Positions 21,580-37,605 of a DNA stretch of 64,000 nt are shown one piece after another; position 1 is the stretch's first letter; each line of letters begins with the position of its first letter. The stretch covers positions 1 to 64,000 of the forward strand of contig PQAS01000030.1 in NCBI GenBank assembly GCA_003104905.1, read 5' to 3'. The notes beneath the pieces were generated by a model. The model made no database searches. It was not told where the DNA came from and saw only the letters and a program-made list of their open reading frames with translations. The DNA is from Candidatus Methanoperedentaceae archaeon. Its GTDB lineage: Archaea; Halobacteriota; Methanosarcinia; Methanosarcinales; Methanoperedenaceae. The position numbers and the translations under genes were made by a program.

Positions 21580-22353
21580 TCATTGCCTTTTTCTGCATTC
21601 TTTAAGCATTTCCTCAAAAGTGTAATTCTCAGGCATGATATCTACCTTCACGCCACATCCGATCAAAGTATCACGTGTAGGTTTGCCAATAGCTGCTACC
21701 ATCTTGCTGTTCATGATACGAATTATTTCATCCTTTGCTCCCATATCATTTGCAAGAGCCATGAAATTCCTGACCATCATGGTGCTTGTGAATGCAAAAA
21801 TATCCACACCCCCGGCAAGCGCGTGCTTCATGAGCGCCTCATGCCTCTCATCCCTGGGACTGATTATCTGATATACCTGTGTTTCATGCACCACAGCCCC
21901 CTTTTCAAGAAGTCCTCTTACAAGTTCAGGCGCTCCATGGCTGCTCCTTGCGATCTCGATACTTGCTCCTTCGATTTTGTTCATCGATTCAACAAGTCCT
22001 GCTGAACTGTAAGACTCTGGCATCATACTAACATGAATCCCGTTTTTCAAAAGTGCGTCTCTTGTCCTGGGGCCGATAGCCACAACATTGGTTTCATTGA
22101 GGCGTTCAATAAATTCATCCGGATATTTCAGCTTCAATAATGTAAATTCAACTCCGTTAGCGCTGGTGAAAATTACATAATCGGACTCTCCCCCCATTAT
22201 ACGATCAAAAAATTCTTTGAATTCATGTCCGCTCTTATCCATTACATCGATCATGGGAGCTGTTATTGTGGAAAAACCCATCGAAGCTGCAAGCCTGACA
22301 GACTCTTCCATATAACCGGAAGGTCTCATAATGGCTATTACTTTCATTTCCAT
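21580..22353 (-). CDS. hemD: uroporphyrinogen-III synthase
   Basis: HemD closes hydroxymethylbilane into uroporphyrinogen III with inversion of ring D. The protein (257 residues) shows the weak but recognisable family pattern: IFTSANGVEF in the first domain, VVAIGPRTRDAL at the crossover, IFAFTSTMMVRNF and VAAIGKPTRDTL in the second domain, and the C-terminal MPENYTFEEML. It is the last gene of the menG-hemL-hemC-cobA-hemD operon, three bases after cobA. An alternative start lies two codons in (Met3). Confidence 0.93.
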   Translation of the reverse strand: MEMKVIAIMRPSGYMEESVRLAASMGFSTITAPMIDVMDKSGHEFKEFFDRIMGGESDYVIFTSANGVEFTLLKLKYPDEFIERLNETNVVAIGPRTRDALLKNGIHVSMMPESYSSAGLVESMNKIEGASIEIARSSHGAPELVRGLLEKGAVVHETQVYQIISPRDERHEALMKHALAGGVDIFAFTSTMMVRNFMALANDMGAKDEIIRIMNSKMVAAIGKPTRDTLIGCGVKVDIMPENYTFEEMLKECRKRQ

Positions 22354-22356
22354 CTT

Positions 22357-23094
22357 TCAAAGAGCAAGTTCGTGATGCAATTTTACAACATCGCCTATCA
22401 CGGTAATTGCCGGAGCTTTTACCTTTCGTTGTTTGCAGAGACTTACAATATCAGCAAGTGTTCCAATGGTTACCCGCTGGTCGGGCCGCGTGCCTCTTTC
22501 TATCACCGCAACCGGAGTATCTACGGATTTACCGTGCTTCATTAATTCTTTCACATTTCTCTCCAGCATGCTGACACCCATCAGGATAACAAGCGTTCCT
22601 TCAAATTTCGCAAGAAGTTCCCAGTCAAGAGCTGTTTCGTCCTTTTCGGGATCTTCATGCCCTGTTATGAAAGTTACCATGGATGCATAATCACGATGCG
22701 TAATTGGAATTCCAGCATACGCCGGAACTGCAATTGCCGAGGTTATCCCCGGGACGATCTCCACGTTGATGCCTTCTGCTGCAAGCGTCTGTGCTTCCTC
22801 GCCTCCGCGGCCGAAAAGGTATGGATCTCCCCCCTTTAACCGTACCACGATCTTTCCTTCTTTTGCCCTTTTGACAAGGAGCTCATTTATCTGCCACTGC
22901 GAAAGCTTGTGATTCCCTGCATATTTACCAACATCTATTTTCTCGGCTGATTCCGGCAACATATCAAGTATCGCTTTACCCGGAAGCTGGTCATAAAGAA
23001 TGACCTGGGCGCTCTCAATAAGCCTTTTTGCTTTTATGGTCAGAAGCTCCGGGTCGCCGGGACCTGAGCCTACAAGATAAACTTTCCCTTTCAT
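22357..23094 (-). CDS. cobA: uroporphyrinogen-III C-methyltransferase (SUMT)
   Basis: SUMT methylates uroporphyrinogen III twice to give precorrin-2, the branch point to sirohaem, cobalamin, coenzyme F430 and archaeal haem. Motifs: VYLVGSGPGDPELLTIKA at the N-terminus, VVRLKGGDPYLFGRGGEEA for SAM binding, and PGITSAIAVPAYAGIPITHR. The length of 245 residues is normal for the single-domain enzyme with no CysG-type fusion. It lies in the operon between hemC and hemD, with a 2-base gap to hemC. Confidence 0.97.
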   Translation of the reverse strand: MKGKVYLVGSGPGDPELLTIKAKRLIESAQVILYDQLPGKAILDMLPESAEKIDVGKYAGNHKLSQWQINELLVKRAKEGKIVVRLKGGDPYLFGRGGEEAQTLAAEGINVEIVPGITSAIAVPAYAGIPITHRDYASMVTFITGHEDPEKDETALDWELLAKFEGTLVILMGVSMLERNVKELMKHGKSVDTPVAVIERGTRPDQRVTIGTLADIVSLCKQRKVKAPAITVIGDVVKLHHELAL

Positions 23095-23096
23095 TT

Positions 23097-24026
23097 TTAT
23101 CCTCTTTTAGCTGCAAATATTTTTACTGCTTCATCCACAAGTTTGCCGCCGCCTTTTTTGTTCAAATCATTACCGATTCTCTCGGCTTCCTTTTCATATT
23201 CGGCGGGGTTTATAAATTCATCTATTTTTACGCATCGTTTTCCGTCAACTGAGAGAACTTCCGTGCGTACATGTATCTCATTACCTTCAGTCTGTGCAAA
23301 AGCGCCGATGGGAACAAGACATCCACCACCAAGTATACCGATTATTATCCTTTCTATCCTTGTTTCAAGGCGCGTCTGAATATCATTCAATTCCTGGGCT
23401 GAAATTTGCGCTTCTGAATCTTTTTTAGTAACAATAACCACCGTTCCCTGGTTGGCAGATGGAACAAAATCATCAGGATCAAGACGTTCTCCCGGCAGGT
23501 CCCATTTCAACCTTTCCAGTCCTGCCTCGGCAAGGAAAATACCATCGTATTGCCCTTCCTTAAGTTTGCGAAGACGGGTGTCGATATTTCCCCTCAACTC
23601 CTTTATATTGAAACCTGTCCTGAATCTGGAAAGCTGGGCTCGCCTTCTCAGGCTTGTAGTTCCAATGATCGAACCTTCAGGAAGGTCTTTCAATTTTGTA
23701 TCTTCACGCGTAAGCAGGAAATCATATGGTGAGTCACGCTTCATTACTGCAGCCATTGTAAGTTCGGGCGGACGCTCGGTAGGAATATCTTTCATGCTGT
23801 GTACCGCAATATCTATCTGGCCTGCAAGCATCGAATCGTCTATCTCCCTCACAAAAACCCCGAATCCCTGCACTTCATGCAGCGGCCTGTCAGTGAAGGT
23901 ATCACCGGATGTCTTGATTATATTGATCTCCGTATCCACTCCTTTTCTTGCAAGGAGATCTTTAACCAGGTTTGCCTGGGCAAGAGCAAGTTTGCTCCCT
24001 CTTGAACCGATACGCAATTTTTTCAT
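23097..24026 (-). CDS. hemC: porphobilinogen deaminase (hydroxymethylbilane synthase)
   Basis: HemC joins four porphobilinogen units into hydroxymethylbilane. The 309 residues contain IGSRGSKLALAQA at the start, the catalytic aspartate in HSMKD (D80), the cofactor-binding arginine region TTSLRRRAQL, and the dipyrromethane-attachment cysteine C236 in LGGGCLVPIGAF. All key residues are present. It is the third gene of the operon, two bases after hemL. Confidence 0.97.
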   Translation of the reverse strand: MKKLRIGSRGSKLALAQANLVKDLLARKGVDTEINIIKTSGDTFTDRPLHEVQGFGVFVREIDDSMLAGQIDIAVHSMKDIPTERPPELTMAAVMKRDSPYDFLLTREDTKLKDLPEGSIIGTTSLRRRAQLSRFRTGFNIKELRGNIDTRLRKLKEGQYDGIFLAEAGLERLKWDLPGERLDPDDFVPSANQGTVVIVTKKDSEAQISAQELNDIQTRLETRIERIIIGILGGGCLVPIGAFAQTEGNEIHVRTEVLSVDGKRCVKIDEFINPAEYEKEAERIGNDLNKKGGGKLVDEAVKIFAAKRG

Positions 24027-24028
24027 AA

Positions 24029-25294
24029 TTATTTCAAATTCCTTTTGTAAGCTTCTATGGTTTTTTCAATATCATCCTTTGAGTGGGCAACGGACAGGAA
24101 GTTTGTTTCAAACTGTGATGGGGGCAAAAAGATGCTGTCAGTTAGCATTTTCTTGAAGAACTCATTGAATTTATTAGTATCGCATTTCAGTGCTTCCTGA
24201 TAATTGTAAGGCATATCCCCAAAGAACACTTTGAACATGCTCCCTACTCCGCTCACGTTATAATCCAGTCCGAGATCCGCTATAATATCAGATAATCCTG
24301 ACCGCAATAAATCACCCGCTTTATTTACCCTGTCGTGTACTTTCTCTTTTCTTAACGTGCTTATCACGGCAAGTCCGGCTGTCATGGAAACCGGACTTCC
24401 ATTGAATGTTCCTGCCTGGTAAACAGGTCCTGCAGGTGAAATTTTCTCCATTATCTCACGATTTCCCCCGATCACTCCGATATGGAAACCTCCGCCAAGT
24501 ATCTTTCCAAGGGTTGTCATATCAGGTGTTACTCCATAATATTCCTGCGCTCCCCCCATCGCCAGCCGAAAACCTGTTATGACCTCATCGAATATCAATA
24601 CCACATCATTTTCTTTTGTTACGGCGCGTACCTCTTCCAGATAACCTTTTTCTGGCAATATTGGCCCGATATTCCCAAGTACGGGCTCCATAATTACCAC
24701 CGCCACATCATCCTTATAAGCTTTGATGGCTTCTGTCATGGCTTCGATATCGTTGTAGGGAACCTGGAGCGTGTTTTTTGTAAAATCTTTTGGGACTCCC
24801 GCGGAATCAGGTGTTCCCAGAGTCGTTGCGCCAGAACCCGCTTTTACAAGCACGGCTTCATGAGCACCATGAAAGCCCCCTTCGATCTTAATTATCTTAT
24901 TCTTACCTGTGAAACCTCGCGCTGCACGAAGTGCTCCCATTGTAGCTTCGGTTCCTGTGGATACAAATCTTACCATGTCGATACTGGCATAAAGCTCAAT
25001 AATTTCTTTTGCAAGAGCGACTTCAAGTCCGGTCGGTGTTCCATAAAGCCAGCCGTCATCAAGCTGCCTGGTCACGGCTTCCTTTATAGAAGGATGATTA
25101 TGGCCAAGAAGCAAAGGCCCGTAACCCATAACGTAATCGATATATTCATTTCCGTCTATATCAGTTATTTTTGAGCCGTCAGCTTTTTTCGTATAAAACG
25201 GATACGGTTTTATAGCTCGGACCGGGCTGCTCACTCCTCCCGGAAGGATCTTCTTTGCGTCTTCAAATAATTTTCTTGATTTCTCTGTTCCCAT
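24029..25294 (-). CDS. hemL: glutamate-1-semialdehyde 2,1-aminomutase
   Basis: HemL makes 5-aminolevulinate from glutamate-1-semialdehyde, using pyridoxal phosphate. The 421-residue chain has [17 protein letters not shown], the DEVITGFR segment with the cofactor-contacting aspartate, and the Schiff-base lysine K264 in [14 protein letters not shown]. The pathway partners hemA and hemB are not in this window. It is 45 bases downstream of menG and may share its promoter. Confidence 0.97.
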
Positions 25295-25339: not shown

Positions 25340-26041
25340 TTAAACCTTTATCTTATCAATGCGATCTCCGACATAAACTGTGACTATCCCGAAAGTCAGG
25401 TCAAAATATTCCACATGCGAGATACCAGCGTCTTTCATAATTCCTACAAACTCGTTCCTTTTTGGAAACGCCATCACTGATGCAGGAAGATAATCGTAAG
25501 GTCCGTTTTTTTCGGATATGACTGTTCCGACTAACGGCAATATCTTTTTGAAATATAAATAATACATATACCTGAAAACCTTATTCTCAGGCAGGGAAAA
25601 TTCAAGAATTACAACCCTGCCACCTATCCTGACTACCCGGTTCATTTCCGATAAGGCTTTTTTAATATCCGCGACATTTCGTATTCCGAAAGCTACAATT
25701 GCCCCATCAAAAGTACCATCCTTGAACGAAAGATTCTCAGCATCGTTCTGTATGCAGCTTACATTTTTCAGATTCTTTTTCTCTAACTTGGGTTTGCATA
25801 ATTTAAGCATCTCAAAACAAAAATCAGAAGCTATGACACGATTCTTTTTGGATGCTTCTATTGCAACATCCCCCGTACCGGAGCAAACATCAATAATATA
25901 TCCGGATGGCAGCTTTGATACTGCATAACGACGCCATTTTTTATCCTTCTGAAGGCTTAACAGGTGATTCAGGAAATCATATCTTTTTGATATACCTGCA
26001 AACATATTCCGGACATTTTCTTTTTTCTGCAGTTGAGACAT
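25340..26041 (-). CDS. demethylmenaquinone methyltransferase (UbiE/MenG)
   Basis: This is the C-methyltransferase of the last step of menaquinone synthesis. The 233 residues carry the UbiE start FAGISKRYDFLNHLLSLQ, SAM motif IIDVCSGTGDVAIEA, the family signature GAIVAFGIRNVADIKKAL, and RIGGRVVILEFSLPE. This suggests the organism makes menaquinone rather than, or besides, methanophenazine. Its position at the head of the tetrapyrrole operon links quinone and haem supply. Close relatives can act on other quinones, so the exact substrate is open. Confidence 0.9.
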   Translation of the reverse strand: MSQLQKKENVRNMFAGISKRYDFLNHLLSLQKDKKWRRYAVSKLPSGYIIDVCSGTGDVAIEASKKNRVIASDFCFEMLKLCKPKLEKKNLKNVSCIQNDAENLSFKDGTFDGAIVAFGIRNVADIKKALSEMNRVVRIGGRVVILEFSLPENKVFRYMYYLYFKKILPLVGTVISEKNGPYDYLPASVMAFPKRNEFVGIMKDAGISHVEYFDLTFGIVTVYVGDRIDKIKV

Positions 26042-33596: not shown

Positions 33597-36245
33597 ATGA
33601 ATACCATGGAGTTCAAAGAACAAAGTTCGGCAAAGAATTTCCTATTATCCTCGATTTTCTGGCTGATACTATTTACGTCATTTGGTTTTATCATTGCCAT
33701 CAAATTTTTTGCTCCTGAATTCCTGGGGCAGTTATCATTTATCACTTTCGGCCGCGTGCGCCCCATGCATGTAAACGGTGTGACCCTGGGTTTTCTTTCC
33801 ACCGGACTTATCGGCATCGCATATTATATAATCCCCAGGTTATCGGGAACGAAACTGTATAGTGAAAAGCTGGGCAATCTCACTGTCATCTTGTGGAATG
33901 TTGCCATTGCTTCAGGTACAATCCTCCTTGCCCTGGGATATACGCAGGCAAGGGAATATGCGGAATATATCTGGATAATCGATGTCGCTATAATTATCAC
34001 GCTTTTATTGATCGGATATAATATTTTCAAAACAATCCAGAAAAGGACAGAGAGAAAACTGTATGCTTCCACATGGTATGTCATGGGCACATTCCTGTCA
34101 TTTCCCATAGTATATTTCATCGGAAATGTAATGTGGCATTCAGATACGGGTTCATTGCAGGGAGCCGTAGATGGTGTTTTCAACTGGTTCTATGGGCATA
34201 ATGTCCTGGGATTATGGTTTACGACGCTGGGAATCGCCGGATGGTATTATTTTATTCCCATCATGACCAGGCGTCCGCTTTACAGTCATCTCCTTTCGAT
34301 GATCGGATTTTTCTCTATCGTATTTGTCTATACAGGCGTTGGAGGACATCATCTTCTGCAGGCGCCGATCCCTGAATGGTTAAAGACCATAGCTATTGTG
34401 AATAGCGGGCTGATGATGATACCGGTTCTTGCTTTCATTACTAATATCCTTCTTACCATGCGCGGGAGATGGGACTGTTTTATAGAAAGTATTCCTCTTC
34501 GTTTTATCCTGATAGGCGCATTCTTATATTTCCTTGCATCGGCGCAGGGCACTTTCCAGGCATTCAGGGAAACTAACATGTACCTGCACTTTGGCCAGTG
34601 GGCTGTTGGACACGCCCATATTGCTCTCCTGGGAGGCTTCGGATTCCTTGTGATGGGTGCCATGTATTTCCTTGTCCCCAGGATCACCGGCAAGGAGATT
34701 TATTCAAACAGGCTTATGAGCTACCATTTCTGGTTCACCATACTTGGTTTCGTATTGTTCTTCTCGATCATGACCATTATGGGTCTTATCCAGAGTTCAG
34801 GATGGGGGCAAAATATCACAGTCGCCACCGTATTGCTCCAATTGAAGCCGTATTTCATAATAAGAGCGCTTGCCGGCGGAACAATAATTGCAGGCCAATA
34901 CATATTTTTTTATAATATCCTGATGACTTTTCAGGGATCGACAAAAACAGTTTCAGAGCCTTCCCTTGCACAACACAAGGTTCCAAGAAAATCCCGAAAG
35001 GTTCAGAAATACAGGGAAAGCGCACCATTATTTGCCATCGGGGCACTTGGCCTCTTCCTGACCATGTTTTTCATAACAGTCATACTTCCGTATCTTCTTA
35101 TGGATTATCCACCTTCGGATATCTCCCATCCCTATTCAGGAGAGCAGGCACGCGGGCGGGAGATTTACAAGAGCAATGGCTGCCTGTATTGTCATTCCCA
35201 GTTCGTGAGAACCCAGGATTGGGGTCTTGGTAGAACATCTCTGCCAGGGGATTATTTCTATGACCGCCCGCATCTTTTCGGAACAGAAAGGACCGGACCT
35301 GATCTTGCCCAGATAGGAGGACAAAGACCCCCTTTATGGGAAATAATGCATCACATGAATCCACGCTCAGTTAGCCCTGGCTCCATAATGCCTAATTTTT
35401 CATACCTCTCAGACCAGGATCTTCAGGATCTCAAAGCATATATCGATGGACTTGGGAACAGAAATCTTGAAACACAGGATTTCCAGCCGCTAGTTCCGGA
35501 ACTTTATTCCGGACGGGATAACATCTATAATGAAACCATCGCAAATGCTAATTCCAGTAACGAATCTATGGCCGAATATGCTGACCTGATATCAGCTGGA
35601 AAAATTCTTTTTTCCCAGCGCTGCCTGCCCTGCCATGGAGCATCCGGCATCGGCCAGGGACCTTATGCGCGGCATGTTAATCAACATCCTGCCAACCTGA
35701 ATGACAGGATCTCAAATTTTCCCGGTGTTGATTATAATTTATGGCGTGTCATGGAAGGAGTACCTGGAACGGCAATGCCCCCATGGAAACTTTCGCTTAC
35801 AGAAGATGCAATATGGAAAATAATTTCGTATGAAAAGACATTTGTTGACGGAGTGGTCAGGGTTATTCCCGGTGACTTTTCCGATGGTGAAGCAGAAGAT
35901 TTTGGCAGCAAGGGTATCAAATCACCCCTTGTTAAGGATGATATTAATTTTACCGAAGGTATGAAATTATTCAATCTCTACTGCGCACAGTGCCACGGCA
36001 TTGATGGGCAGGGTGACGGCCCTGCATCAATATATATTAATCCTGAACCGGCAAATCTGACAGAGACCAATGATGATTTCAAAACACAGGGGCAGTGGTT
36101 CTGGAAGGTGAGCGAAGGTGTGGAAACGACAAACATGCCGCCCTGGAAATATGTCCTGACGGATGATGACCGATGGAAAGCCATATATTATATCCAGAAG
36201 AATTTTTCAGAACCTGGCATTTTCGAAGCAAAATGGAGGTCTTGA
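33597..36245 (+). CDS. cbb3-type haem-copper oxidase: CcoN fused to CcoO-like and two extra cytochrome c domains
   Basis: Residues 1-455 form a CcoN-like catalytic subunit with low-spin and high-spin haem and CuB ligands: H58 (RPMHVNG), H201 (FYGHN), H251-H252, and H339/H341 (GHAH). Y245 lies six residues before the HH pair, matching the His-crosslinked tyrosine of true O2-reducing cbb3 enzymes and absent from NO reductases. Residues about 485-610 are a membrane-anchored CcoO-like domain with haem site CLYCHSQFVR (529-533) and a GSIMPNF methionine. Two more c-type domains follow, at CLPCH (676-680) and CAQCH (796-800), each with an MPPW axial methionine. ATG 33597 or 33606 is the start. Such a three-haem fusion replaces CcoO and the dihaem part of CcoP. 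Function as an O2 reductase is inferred from the residues. Confidence 0.92.
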   Translation: MNTMEFKEQSSAKNFLLSSIFWLILFTSFGFIIAIKFFAPEFLGQLSFITFGRVRPMHVNGVTLGFLSTGLIGIAYYIIPRLSGTKLYSEKLGNLTVILWNVAIASGTILLALGYTQAREYAEYIWIIDVAIIITLLLIGYNIFKTIQKRTERKLYASTWYVMGTFLSFPIVYFIGNVMWHSDTGSLQGAVDGVFNWFYGHNVLGLWFTTLGIAGWYYFIPIMTRRPLYSHLLSMIGFFSIVFVYTGVGGHHLLQAPIPEWLKTIAIVNSGLMMIPVLAFITNILLTMRGRWDCFIESIPLRFILIGAFLYFLASAQGTFQAFRETNMYLHFGQWAVGHAHIALLGGFGFLVMGAMYFLVPRITGKEIYSNRLMSYHFWFTILGFVLFFSIMTIMGLIQSSGWGQNITVATVLLQLKPYFIIRALAGGTIIAGQYIFFYNILMTFQGSTKTVSEPSLAQHKVPRKSRKVQKYRESAPLFAIGALGLFLTMFFITVILPYLLMDYPPSDISHPYSGEQARGREIYKSNGCLYCHSQFVRTQDWGLGRTSLPGDYFYDRPHLFGTERTGPDLAQIGGQRPPLWEIMHHMNPRSVSPGSIMPNFSYLSDQDLQDLKAYIDGLGNRNLETQDFQPLVPELYSGRDNIYNETIANANSSNESMAEYADLISAGKILFSQRCLPCHGASGIGQGPYARHVNQHPANLNDRISNFPGVDYNLWRVMEGVPGTAMPPWKLSLTEDAIWKIISYEKTFVDGVVRVIPGDFSDGEAEDFGSKGIKSPLVKDDINFTEGMKLFNLYCAQCHGIDGQGDGPASIYINPEPANLTETNDDFKTQGQWFWKVSEGVETTNMPPWKYVLTDDDRWKAIYYIQKNFSEPGIFEAKWRS

Positions 36246-36246
36246 A

Positions 36247-36444
36247 ATGCTCGCTGACCATTTAATGACTGGAGAAGCGATGTCCATTAACACTGCCGAC
36301 AATTCAATAATACTTATCGCAAGCGTGATAATTCTTCTTATCTTTCCGGCAATTCTCTACTGGGGTTGGAGAAAGGGGCAGTTCAGGGATATCGAAGAGG
36401 CAAAATACAGGATGATCGAAATGGAGGAGGAAAATGGTAGTTGA
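36247..36444 (+). CDS. CcoS-like cbb3 oxidase maturation protein
   Basis: The 65-residue protein has one membrane helix followed by GWRKGQFRDIEEAKYRMIEM, close to the CcoS pattern W-x-x-x-x-G-Q-F-x-D-x-E. In bacteria CcoS is needed to load haem and copper into the cbb3 catalytic subunit. Start ATG 36247 has GGAGG at 36235-36239 with 7-base spacing, one base after the oxidase stop. Longer upstream frame residues are excluded. CcoG, CcoH and CcoI are not seen in the window. Confidence 0.7.
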   Translation: MLADHLMTGEAMSINTADNSIILIASVIILLIFPAILYWGWRKGQFRDIEEAKYRMIEMEEENGS

Positions 36445-36688
36445 AATATCTCAAACACAGCTGCCTTCGCTTCTGCTGTTGACTGTGCTCCTTGGGGCAG
36501 TGGTTGTTGCGGTTTATTTGAGCTTAAAAAGCGGGGATAAATATTCGGTTGAGGATGCCGATCGTGATGCTATAAGCTTTGCAGATATAATCAGGGAAGC
36601 AGAAGGTCCGATGACAGCATTCCTTATAGCTGCATTTATCATTATAATTATCTGGGCAATTGCCTATCTTGTTCTATATCTTAAATGA
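36434..36688 (+). CDS. small two-helix protein resembling the N-terminal anchor of CcoP
   Basis: The 84 residues have two hydrophobic helices (about 10-30 and 60-83). The second segment, AFIIIIIWAIAYLVLYLK preceded by an acidic stretch and EGPM, resembles the CcoP/FixP N-terminal anchor, where a helix ending YLVLYP precedes the cytochrome domains. Here no cytochrome follows. It overlaps the CcoS-like gene by 11 bases, and its ATG is preceded by GGAGGAGG. The likely reading is a split CcoP whose haem domains were moved onto the oxidase chain. A generic small subunit (CcoQ-like) is the alternative. Confidence 0.55.
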   Translation: MVVEISQTQLPSLLLLTVLLGAVVVAVYLSLKSGDKYSVEDADRDAISFADIIREAEGPMTAFLIAAFIIIIIWAIAYLVLYLK

Positions 36689-36710: not shown

Positions 36711-37139
36711 TTATTTCTTCTTCCGATTTTCGATCTCTTTCTTAATCCATGGGCCCACATCAATTCCATGTATAAGACCTTTCAGGTCATCCTTAAGATT
36801 GGAAGGCTTTGTTTTGATCAGCCATCCTTCGCCATAGGGATCTTCCTTTAAGATGTCAAGATCATCCTCGATATTTTCATTGACCTCAAGAACAATACCT
36901 GCGACGGGCATCAATAATCCGCCTACCCATTTTGCGGATTCAAGTGACCCGAATGCTTCCCCTGCCTCGAACTCATCGTCTTCAAGGGGCAGGTCAATGA
37001 ATTCAATATTTCCTGCCGCTTTTGCTCCGTAAGCGTCAAGGCCGACCGTAACGGTACCGTTGTCTTCAATTCTTGCCCACGTATGATCTTTAGTATAATA
37101 CAAATCATCTGGAAGTTTGTGTCCCTCTATTTCGACCAT
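36711..37139 (-). CDS. GcvH-like lipoyl protein
   Basis: The 142-residue protein has the H-protein fold pattern: DDLYYTKDHTWARIED at the start, then TVGLDAYGAKAAGNIEFIDLP, and the lipoylation site SLESAKWVGG with K70. In the glycine cleavage system this lysine carries dihydrolipoamide. No gcvT, gcvP or lpd is nearby. A second GcvH-like gene lies just upstream on the same strand. H-like proteins without the cleavage enzymes can be the lipoate-binding proteins of the sulfur-oxidising Hdr-like system, so that is a second possibility. Confidence 0.85.
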   Translation of the reverse strand: MVEIEGHKLPDDLYYTKDHTWARIEDNGTVTVGLDAYGAKAAGNIEFIDLPLEDDEFEAGEAFGSLESAKWVGGLLMPVAGIVLEVNENIEDDLDILKEDPYGEGWLIKTKPSNLKDDLKGLIHGIDVGPWIKKEIENRKKK

Positions 37140-37182: not shown

Positions 37183-37605
37183 TTAATTATCTGCATATCG
37201 TTCTCGTTCTTTTGTAATCAATTCGGTAAAATATTTTATTGCCTGTTCTACTTTCATTACATGATTATCATCAAATTTACCTTCCACTTTCACGATCCAT
37301 TCATTATAAGGGTCACTATTGATAATATTGGGGTCTTCCCATAGTTTTTGATTTACTGATGTGACTTTTGCATCAAATGGAACCGATATCTGGGACACTG
37401 CCTTTATTGTTTCATACGCTACAAGCATGTCCCCTTTTTTAATTGATTCTCCCATTTCAGGTAGATCGATATGTACTATCCCTTTGGATAATGATTGGCC
37501 AAGTTCAGTTATACCTACGAGGATTTCTCCATTTAAAGGTTTCAACCACACATGGTTTTTCATATAATATCGATCTTCAGGGAAATCAAAATCATAAGCC
37601 TTCAT
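37183..37605 (-). CDS. second GcvH-like lipoyl protein
   Basis: The 140 residues share the H-protein core: EDRYYMKNHVWLKPL, LVGITELGQSLSKGIVHIDLP and a lipoylation lysine K68 in YETIKAVSQISVPF. It differs clearly from the neighbour at 36711, so this is an old duplication rather than a recent one. The gap between them is 43 bases and both run on the minus strand, so they are probably co-transcribed. The physiological partner is unknown. Confidence 0.83.
   Translation of the reverse strand: MKAYDFDFPEDRYYMKNHVWLKPLNGEILVGITELGQSLSKGIVHIDLPEMGESIKKGDMLVAYETIKAVSQISVPFDAKVTSVNQKLWEDPNIINSDPYNEWIVKVEGKFDDNHVMKVEQAIKYFTELITKERERYADN

Follow-up and report, generated by a model that had tools for sequence, protein, structure and literature searches.

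A divergent C-family oxidase-like protein joining CcoN, CcoO and two cytochrome c domains in one chain in Methanoperedens, Methanolobus and a few bacteria

Both methanogens and anaerobic methane oxidisers are regarded as strictly anaerobic, and the question here is what an intact oxidase-like gene might do in Methanoperedens. Within the window, that is, the whole 64,000-nucleotide stretch analysed here, a single open frame of 882 codons extends without frameshift from 33597 to 36245 on the plus strand, and its translation follows the order ccoN-ccoO-cytc-cytc, a layout shared by its orthologues. Pfam matches comprise COX1 (residues 12-427), FixO (493-610) and Cytochrome_CBB3 in two places, of which 785-866 is the better match; the haem-c domains are thus those of FixO and the two CBB3 matches, and no CuA-type (COX2) domain was found in the chain by Pfam. 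Together, Pfam, alignment and a predicted model delimit a CcoN-like domain with 12 predicted transmembrane helices (residues 12-450; 33630-34946), which is followed on the same strand by a CcoO-like part (residues ~475-625; 35019-35471) with a transmembrane helix at 475-500, a mono-haem motif, C529xxC532H533, and the candidate ligand M598. The first CcoP-like cytochrome c domain (residues ~660-752; 35574-35852, plus strand) contains C676xxC679H680 and the candidate ligand M727, and corresponds to the match of the NCBIfam ccoP model at 659-751; the second (residues ~780-875; 35934-36221, plus strand) contains C796xxC799H800 and the candidate ligand M847. Synonymous change relative to the nearest orthologue far exceeds non-synonymous change (dN/dS ~0.07; 0.0625/0.887), and the gene is therefore under purifying selection as a protein. 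The 882-residue fused frame of the original prediction was confirmed as one intact frame; two small downstream genes of the same cassette were absent from that prediction.

The putative active site resembles that of bacterial cbb3 oxidases in most respects. On alignment, H58, H201, Y245, H251, H252, H339 and H341, all of which had been singled out beforehand, pair with H60, H207, Y251, H257, H258, H345 and H347 of Pseudomonas stutzeri CcoN; the spacing from the tyrosine to the His-His pair is 6 residues in both proteins, as had been claimed, and that from histidine to tyrosine is 44 in both. The six histidine metal ligands and the tyrosine are invariant among 21 homologues, and the three CxxCH motifs and the candidate methionine ligands are likewise invariant among the 21 full-length homologues, archaeal and bacterial. 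Equivalents of P. stutzeri T215, Y223, S240 and Y317, which we take to be residues of the proton path, are also retained. One departure is Gln317, which occupies the position of Glu323 in classical cbb3 enzymes and is glutamine in every member of the fused and split clade. A glutamate in the active centre is described as obligatory for authentic C-type enzymes (PMC5492636, with reference to Muntyan 2015), and we infer this residue to be E323; proton pumping or substrate use may therefore differ in the fused protein. Other non-classical CcoN forms encoded on alphaproteobacterial plasmids (L085 and L086) also have glutamine at this position.

Profile scores and structure bear on the family to which the chain belongs. 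TIGR00780 (ccoN) matches at 298 bits, short of its cut-off of 583, and the best NCBIfam match, NF011053 (CcoN/CcoO fusion), reaches 428 bits where 1080 is the cut-off. The AlphaFold model has 12 plus 1 membrane helices, with a mean pLDDT of 64.7 and poor confidence in the haem-c domains, and its fold is nearest to the cbb3 structure 3mk7 (TM-score by target 0.89), with NO reductase (NOR) next. Because of the glutamine at the Glu323 position and the score below the ccoN cut-off, we file the protein under a broadly defined C family, as a probable divergent relative that lies outside classical cbb3. The prediction of a cbb3-type oxidase accordingly stands in part: the chain has the domain order N-O-c-c and the tyrosine of the cbb3 kind, but is not a classical cbb3 oxidase. 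With the classical CcoNO(Q)P enzyme (P. stutzeri 3mk7; TIGR00780/TIGR00781/TIGR00782) it has in common the CcoN fold, the six histidines, the tyrosine spacing, the mono-haem CcoO, the di-haem CcoP-like domains and a linked CcoS; it differs in being one chain rather than three, in having the CcoP anchor apparently encoded by a separate small gene, and in its glutamine, with ~29% identity in the fold alignment. The statement that cbb3 enzymes usually have separate chains also proved incomplete, given that CcoN-CcoO fusions and CcoO-cytochrome fusions are each known, separately, from earlier work. In the former (NF011053 PRK14485; Melioribacter CcoNO, PMC5492636) CcoN and CcoO likewise form one chain, but the NF011053 profile of 716 positions lacks fused CcoP-like domains, and the Melioribacter protein, unlike the present fusion, belongs to the clade of authentic cbb3 enzymes. 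In the latter (NF011054 PRK14486; Sinorhizobium meliloti L086; L046-L061) CcoP-like domains follow CcoO in one chain as they do here, whereas CcoN is separate; the S. meliloti locus, for example, encodes CcoN and then a second chain in which CcoO is joined to two cytochrome domains. L046-L061, from Chloroflexota and Actinomycetota, share the downstream pattern of CcoS and a small gene resembling the anchor, beyond which a frame the size of a P-type ATPase often lies, and their CcoO has four further cytochrome c domains and five CxxCH motifs.

The two small genes lie immediately 3' of the fusion on the plus strand. The first (36247-36444) encodes a CcoS/FixS-like membrane protein of 65 residues (PF03597, 2e-7, above gathering); it begins 1 base past the oxidase stop codon, with GGAGG just upstream of its start. 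The second (36434-36688) overlaps the first by 11 bases and encodes a membrane protein of 84 residues with a weak match to PF14715 (FixP_N, the CcoP N-terminal anchor; 7.5e-6, just above gathering), a family matched by five of its 16 homologues. Since hhalign against one classical CcoP gave just E = 0.014, assignment of this protein as an anchor rests on the Pfam matches and gene order, and its putative anchor identity is the weakest link in our reading of the cassette. The fusion has this pair on its 3' side in Methanolobus, ANME-2, Desulfosporosinus, Clostridiales, Syntrophaceae and Actinobacteria too, and in Chloroflexota and Actinomycetota the pair comes 3' of separate genes for CcoN and a five-haem CcoO; genes upstream of the fusion vary from genome to genome. 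Conservation of these two coupled genes suggests that CcoP has been split, its haem part being fused to CcoNO. The simplest reading would be that the haem part joined CcoO first and CcoN later, and that the anchor stayed a gene of its own. Directly downstream of the cassette, on the minus strand, are two tandem and divergent GcvH genes (36711-37139 and 37183-37605), which are also found in the nearest relative (L029).

Genes that might support such an enzyme occur in the same genome. CcmF, for haem-c attachment, was found in all 13 genomes tested, including this one; a respiratory-sized Rieske frame was found in Methanoperedens, again including this genome, which also has mcrA. The window itself contains haem/sirohaem-type genes (21580-25294) and one or more menaquinone-methyltransferase-like genes (25340-26041), as read from the sequence, and the Methanoperedens group has been reported to possess menaquinone and a Rieske/cytochrome b complex (PMC4683180). 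Cytochrome bd was not found in six Methanoperedens genomes, and the fusion is therefore the only candidate oxygen reductase found in them here; two Methanolobus genomes do have cytochrome bd. The Rieske-type frames recovered from Methanolobus were all short, like those of the M. acetivorans control, and as a guess the electron donor there would be a multihaem cytochrome.

By analogy with the solved cbb3 enzyme, we propose that the catalytic CcoN, the mono-haem CcoO and the di-haem part of CcoP were merged in one polypeptide, with CcoS retained for maturation, while the membrane anchor of CcoP would persist as a small subunit of its own. A c-type cytochrome would carry electrons from a menaquinol/Rieske-cytochrome b chain to the haem-c domains of the fusion, from which they would reach a low-spin haem b (H58/H341) and then haem b3 (H339) and CuB (H201, H251 and H252), where Y245, if joined to H201 by the cross-link known from the bacterial enzymes, would provide an electron and a proton for reduction of oxygen. 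In redox-fluctuating habitats, removal of trace oxygen could shield methyl-coenzyme M reductase (Mcr), and some energy might be conserved in the process. The cassette is thus read, with good though not full confidence, as a divergent C-family cytochrome c:O2 oxidoreductase, mostly for removal of trace oxygen and maybe energy-conserving. Invariant ligands, the position in the tree, the fold, the linked CcoS, dN/dS, CcmF, the Rieske frame and mcrA weigh in its favour; weighed against it are Gln317, the sub-cut-off scores, occurrence in a minority of the genus, the weak FixP_N match and the poor model of the haem-c domains. Since these archaea have an intact gene for an oxygen-reductase-like enzyme, supposedly strict anaerobes are probably able to remove, or even to breathe, trace oxygen, the most likely role being high-affinity oxygen removal fed by cytochrome c.

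Respiration proper, which the original prediction had named beside oxygen defence, is possible, but ranks below oxygen removal. Under this alternative, which we regard as rather unlikely, energy-conserving microaerobic oxidation of methane or methyl compounds with oxygen as the terminal acceptor would be the main function, beyond mere removal of oxygen. Retention of the proton-path residues is consistent with it, as are the menaquinone and the Rieske/cytochrome b complex of Methanoperedens; set against these are the presence of the gene in just a third of the genus, and its occurrence in methanogens with no evident respiratory Rieske complex (short frames only). Further, Mcr is generally sensitive to oxygen. 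We would accordingly give only a low probability to the broader proposal that some Methanoperedens and Methanolobus are facultatively microaerobic, coupling oxidation of methane or methyl compounds to oxygen via a single-chain, Gln-type C-family oxidase. If this were true, then methanogen-type metabolism and oxygen respiration would meet in the same cell, by means of an oxidase lineage exchanged between archaea and bacteria.

Less likely again is that the enzyme works mainly on nitrogen oxides, as a reductase of NO (or nitrite) or as an NO-detoxifying enzyme in an organism exposed to nitrate and NO. Methanoperedens does inhabit nitrogen-rich settings, the active-centre region is unlike the classical one at Gln317, C-family enzymes are able to reduce NO, and the P. 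stutzeri cbb3 oxidase can convert nitrite to N2O (PMC8780969). We nonetheless consider this role improbable because the genome already encodes a separate cNOR-like set, comprising NorB, a NorC-like cytochrome and a di-haem cytochrome (L002:268-4210, contig C52, minus strand). This NorB of 857 residues has NOR-type residues and no active-site tyrosine on alignment, and no Pfam family is matched by its C-terminal half, where ~400 residues form additional membrane helices. The fusion has its fold and histidine ligands in common with cNOR and qNOR (4xyd, 3o0r and the genome's own NorB), but NORs lack the tyrosine, have a glutamate in a WVE motif and form a separate clade, whereas the fusion keeps the tyrosine and has no WVE motif. 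In the CcoN-domain tree, NORs, including the NorB of this genome, are separated from the tyrosine-bearing sequences and the fusion with support of 100/100, on long branches. Residues and tree position together reject the protein as a NOR, and placement within a NOR clade lacking the tyrosine, which the original prediction had named as a potential objection, is not what the tree recovers.

A non-functional or chimeric gene, whether an artefact of assembly or binning or a transferred gene in decay, is extremely improbable: the window derives from a MAG with 3.4% contamination and the gene has bacterial relatives, but the fusion is intact and in frame in several independent Methanoperedens assemblies and in closed and isolate Methanolobus genomes, which excludes the frameshift joining separate genes that had been the other anticipated objection, and low dN/dS and a conserved cassette argue against decay. 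Full-length in-frame fusions of about 880-985 residues were found in genomes of the same genus, HGW-Methanoperedenaceae-1, an ANME-2 MAG, Methanolobus and a few bacteria. The Methanolobus carriers include the isolate M. vulcani PL 12/M and closed genomes, two of which (G063 and G084) we assign to Methanolobus because the tree places them next to L036 and L049; a closed genome of another genus within the same family as our archaeon (G097) also carries the fusion. Among 31 Methanoperedens genomes, 11 carry the gene, two of these (G010 and G025) showing pieces at contig ends only, and it is therefore accessory. Among 394 genomes drawn from the phylum, the fusion occurred only in the present genome and five genomes of one family, and none was found on viral contigs in IMG/VR. 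The original prediction placed the fusion in an archaeon-like genome, which holds insofar as the host, represented by a Candidatus Methanoperedens MAG, is an archaeon related to methanogens; the fusion is unique neither to this genome nor to archaea.

All 21 fused sequences form one clade in the CcoN-domain tree (99/96). In the tree of CcoN plus CcoO the archaeal sequences fall into two lineages: the first is restricted to Methanoperedenaceae, and the second, comprising Methanolobus, G097, ANME-2 and one Methanoperedens genome (G021), is sister to the bacterial fusions; these trees took in five bacterial fusions, a thin sampling, and some branches are long. A single clade of archaeal fusions is rejected (AU p = 0.001), which requires at least two archaeal lineages and gene exchange between domains. 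Two transfers into archaea would fit this result, as would one archaeal origin of the fusion with transfer to bacteria. The fusion in G021 (L013; G021:C24:5925-8648) is of the Methanolobus type and stands in place of the genus-typical one, which suggests that the gene was transferred or replaced within the order.

Neither the full fusion nor its range among archaea seems to have been described in the literature searched, on Methanoperedens or Methanolobus and cbb3 or cytochrome c oxidase, coverage of which was incomplete, such that an earlier mention is possible. A 2025 survey listed haem-copper oxidase (HCO) matches in three Methanosarcinales strains, with no reports of expression or function (PMC7618691); at least where these are the same protein, they now gain a concrete identity as an intact, conserved and selected C-family cassette. 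The accessible part of a landfill study (PMC10654671) credits MAG STD1_19, which carries the fusion (L031), with NO-reducing potential and leaves the oxidase unmentioned. The clade may also correspond to the 'unknown group' of Muntyan 2015. Presence of the cassette in cultured Methanolobus opens its function to experiment there, and a natural single-chain enzyme with all three haem-c domains and a Glu-to-Gln substitution could be useful in studies of proton pumping in the C family. More broadly, if the enzyme is active, then models of where these archaea consume or make methane would change.

Elsewhere in this genome, a COX1-like protein of 138 residues, with four helices and an HSH motif (PF00115, 39.6 bits), is encoded at L004:1339-1755 on the minus strand (contig C21, about 85924-86085). 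Its gene adjoins CGGC-domain and DUF2124 genes, and similar short open frames are found in most Methanoperedens genomes.
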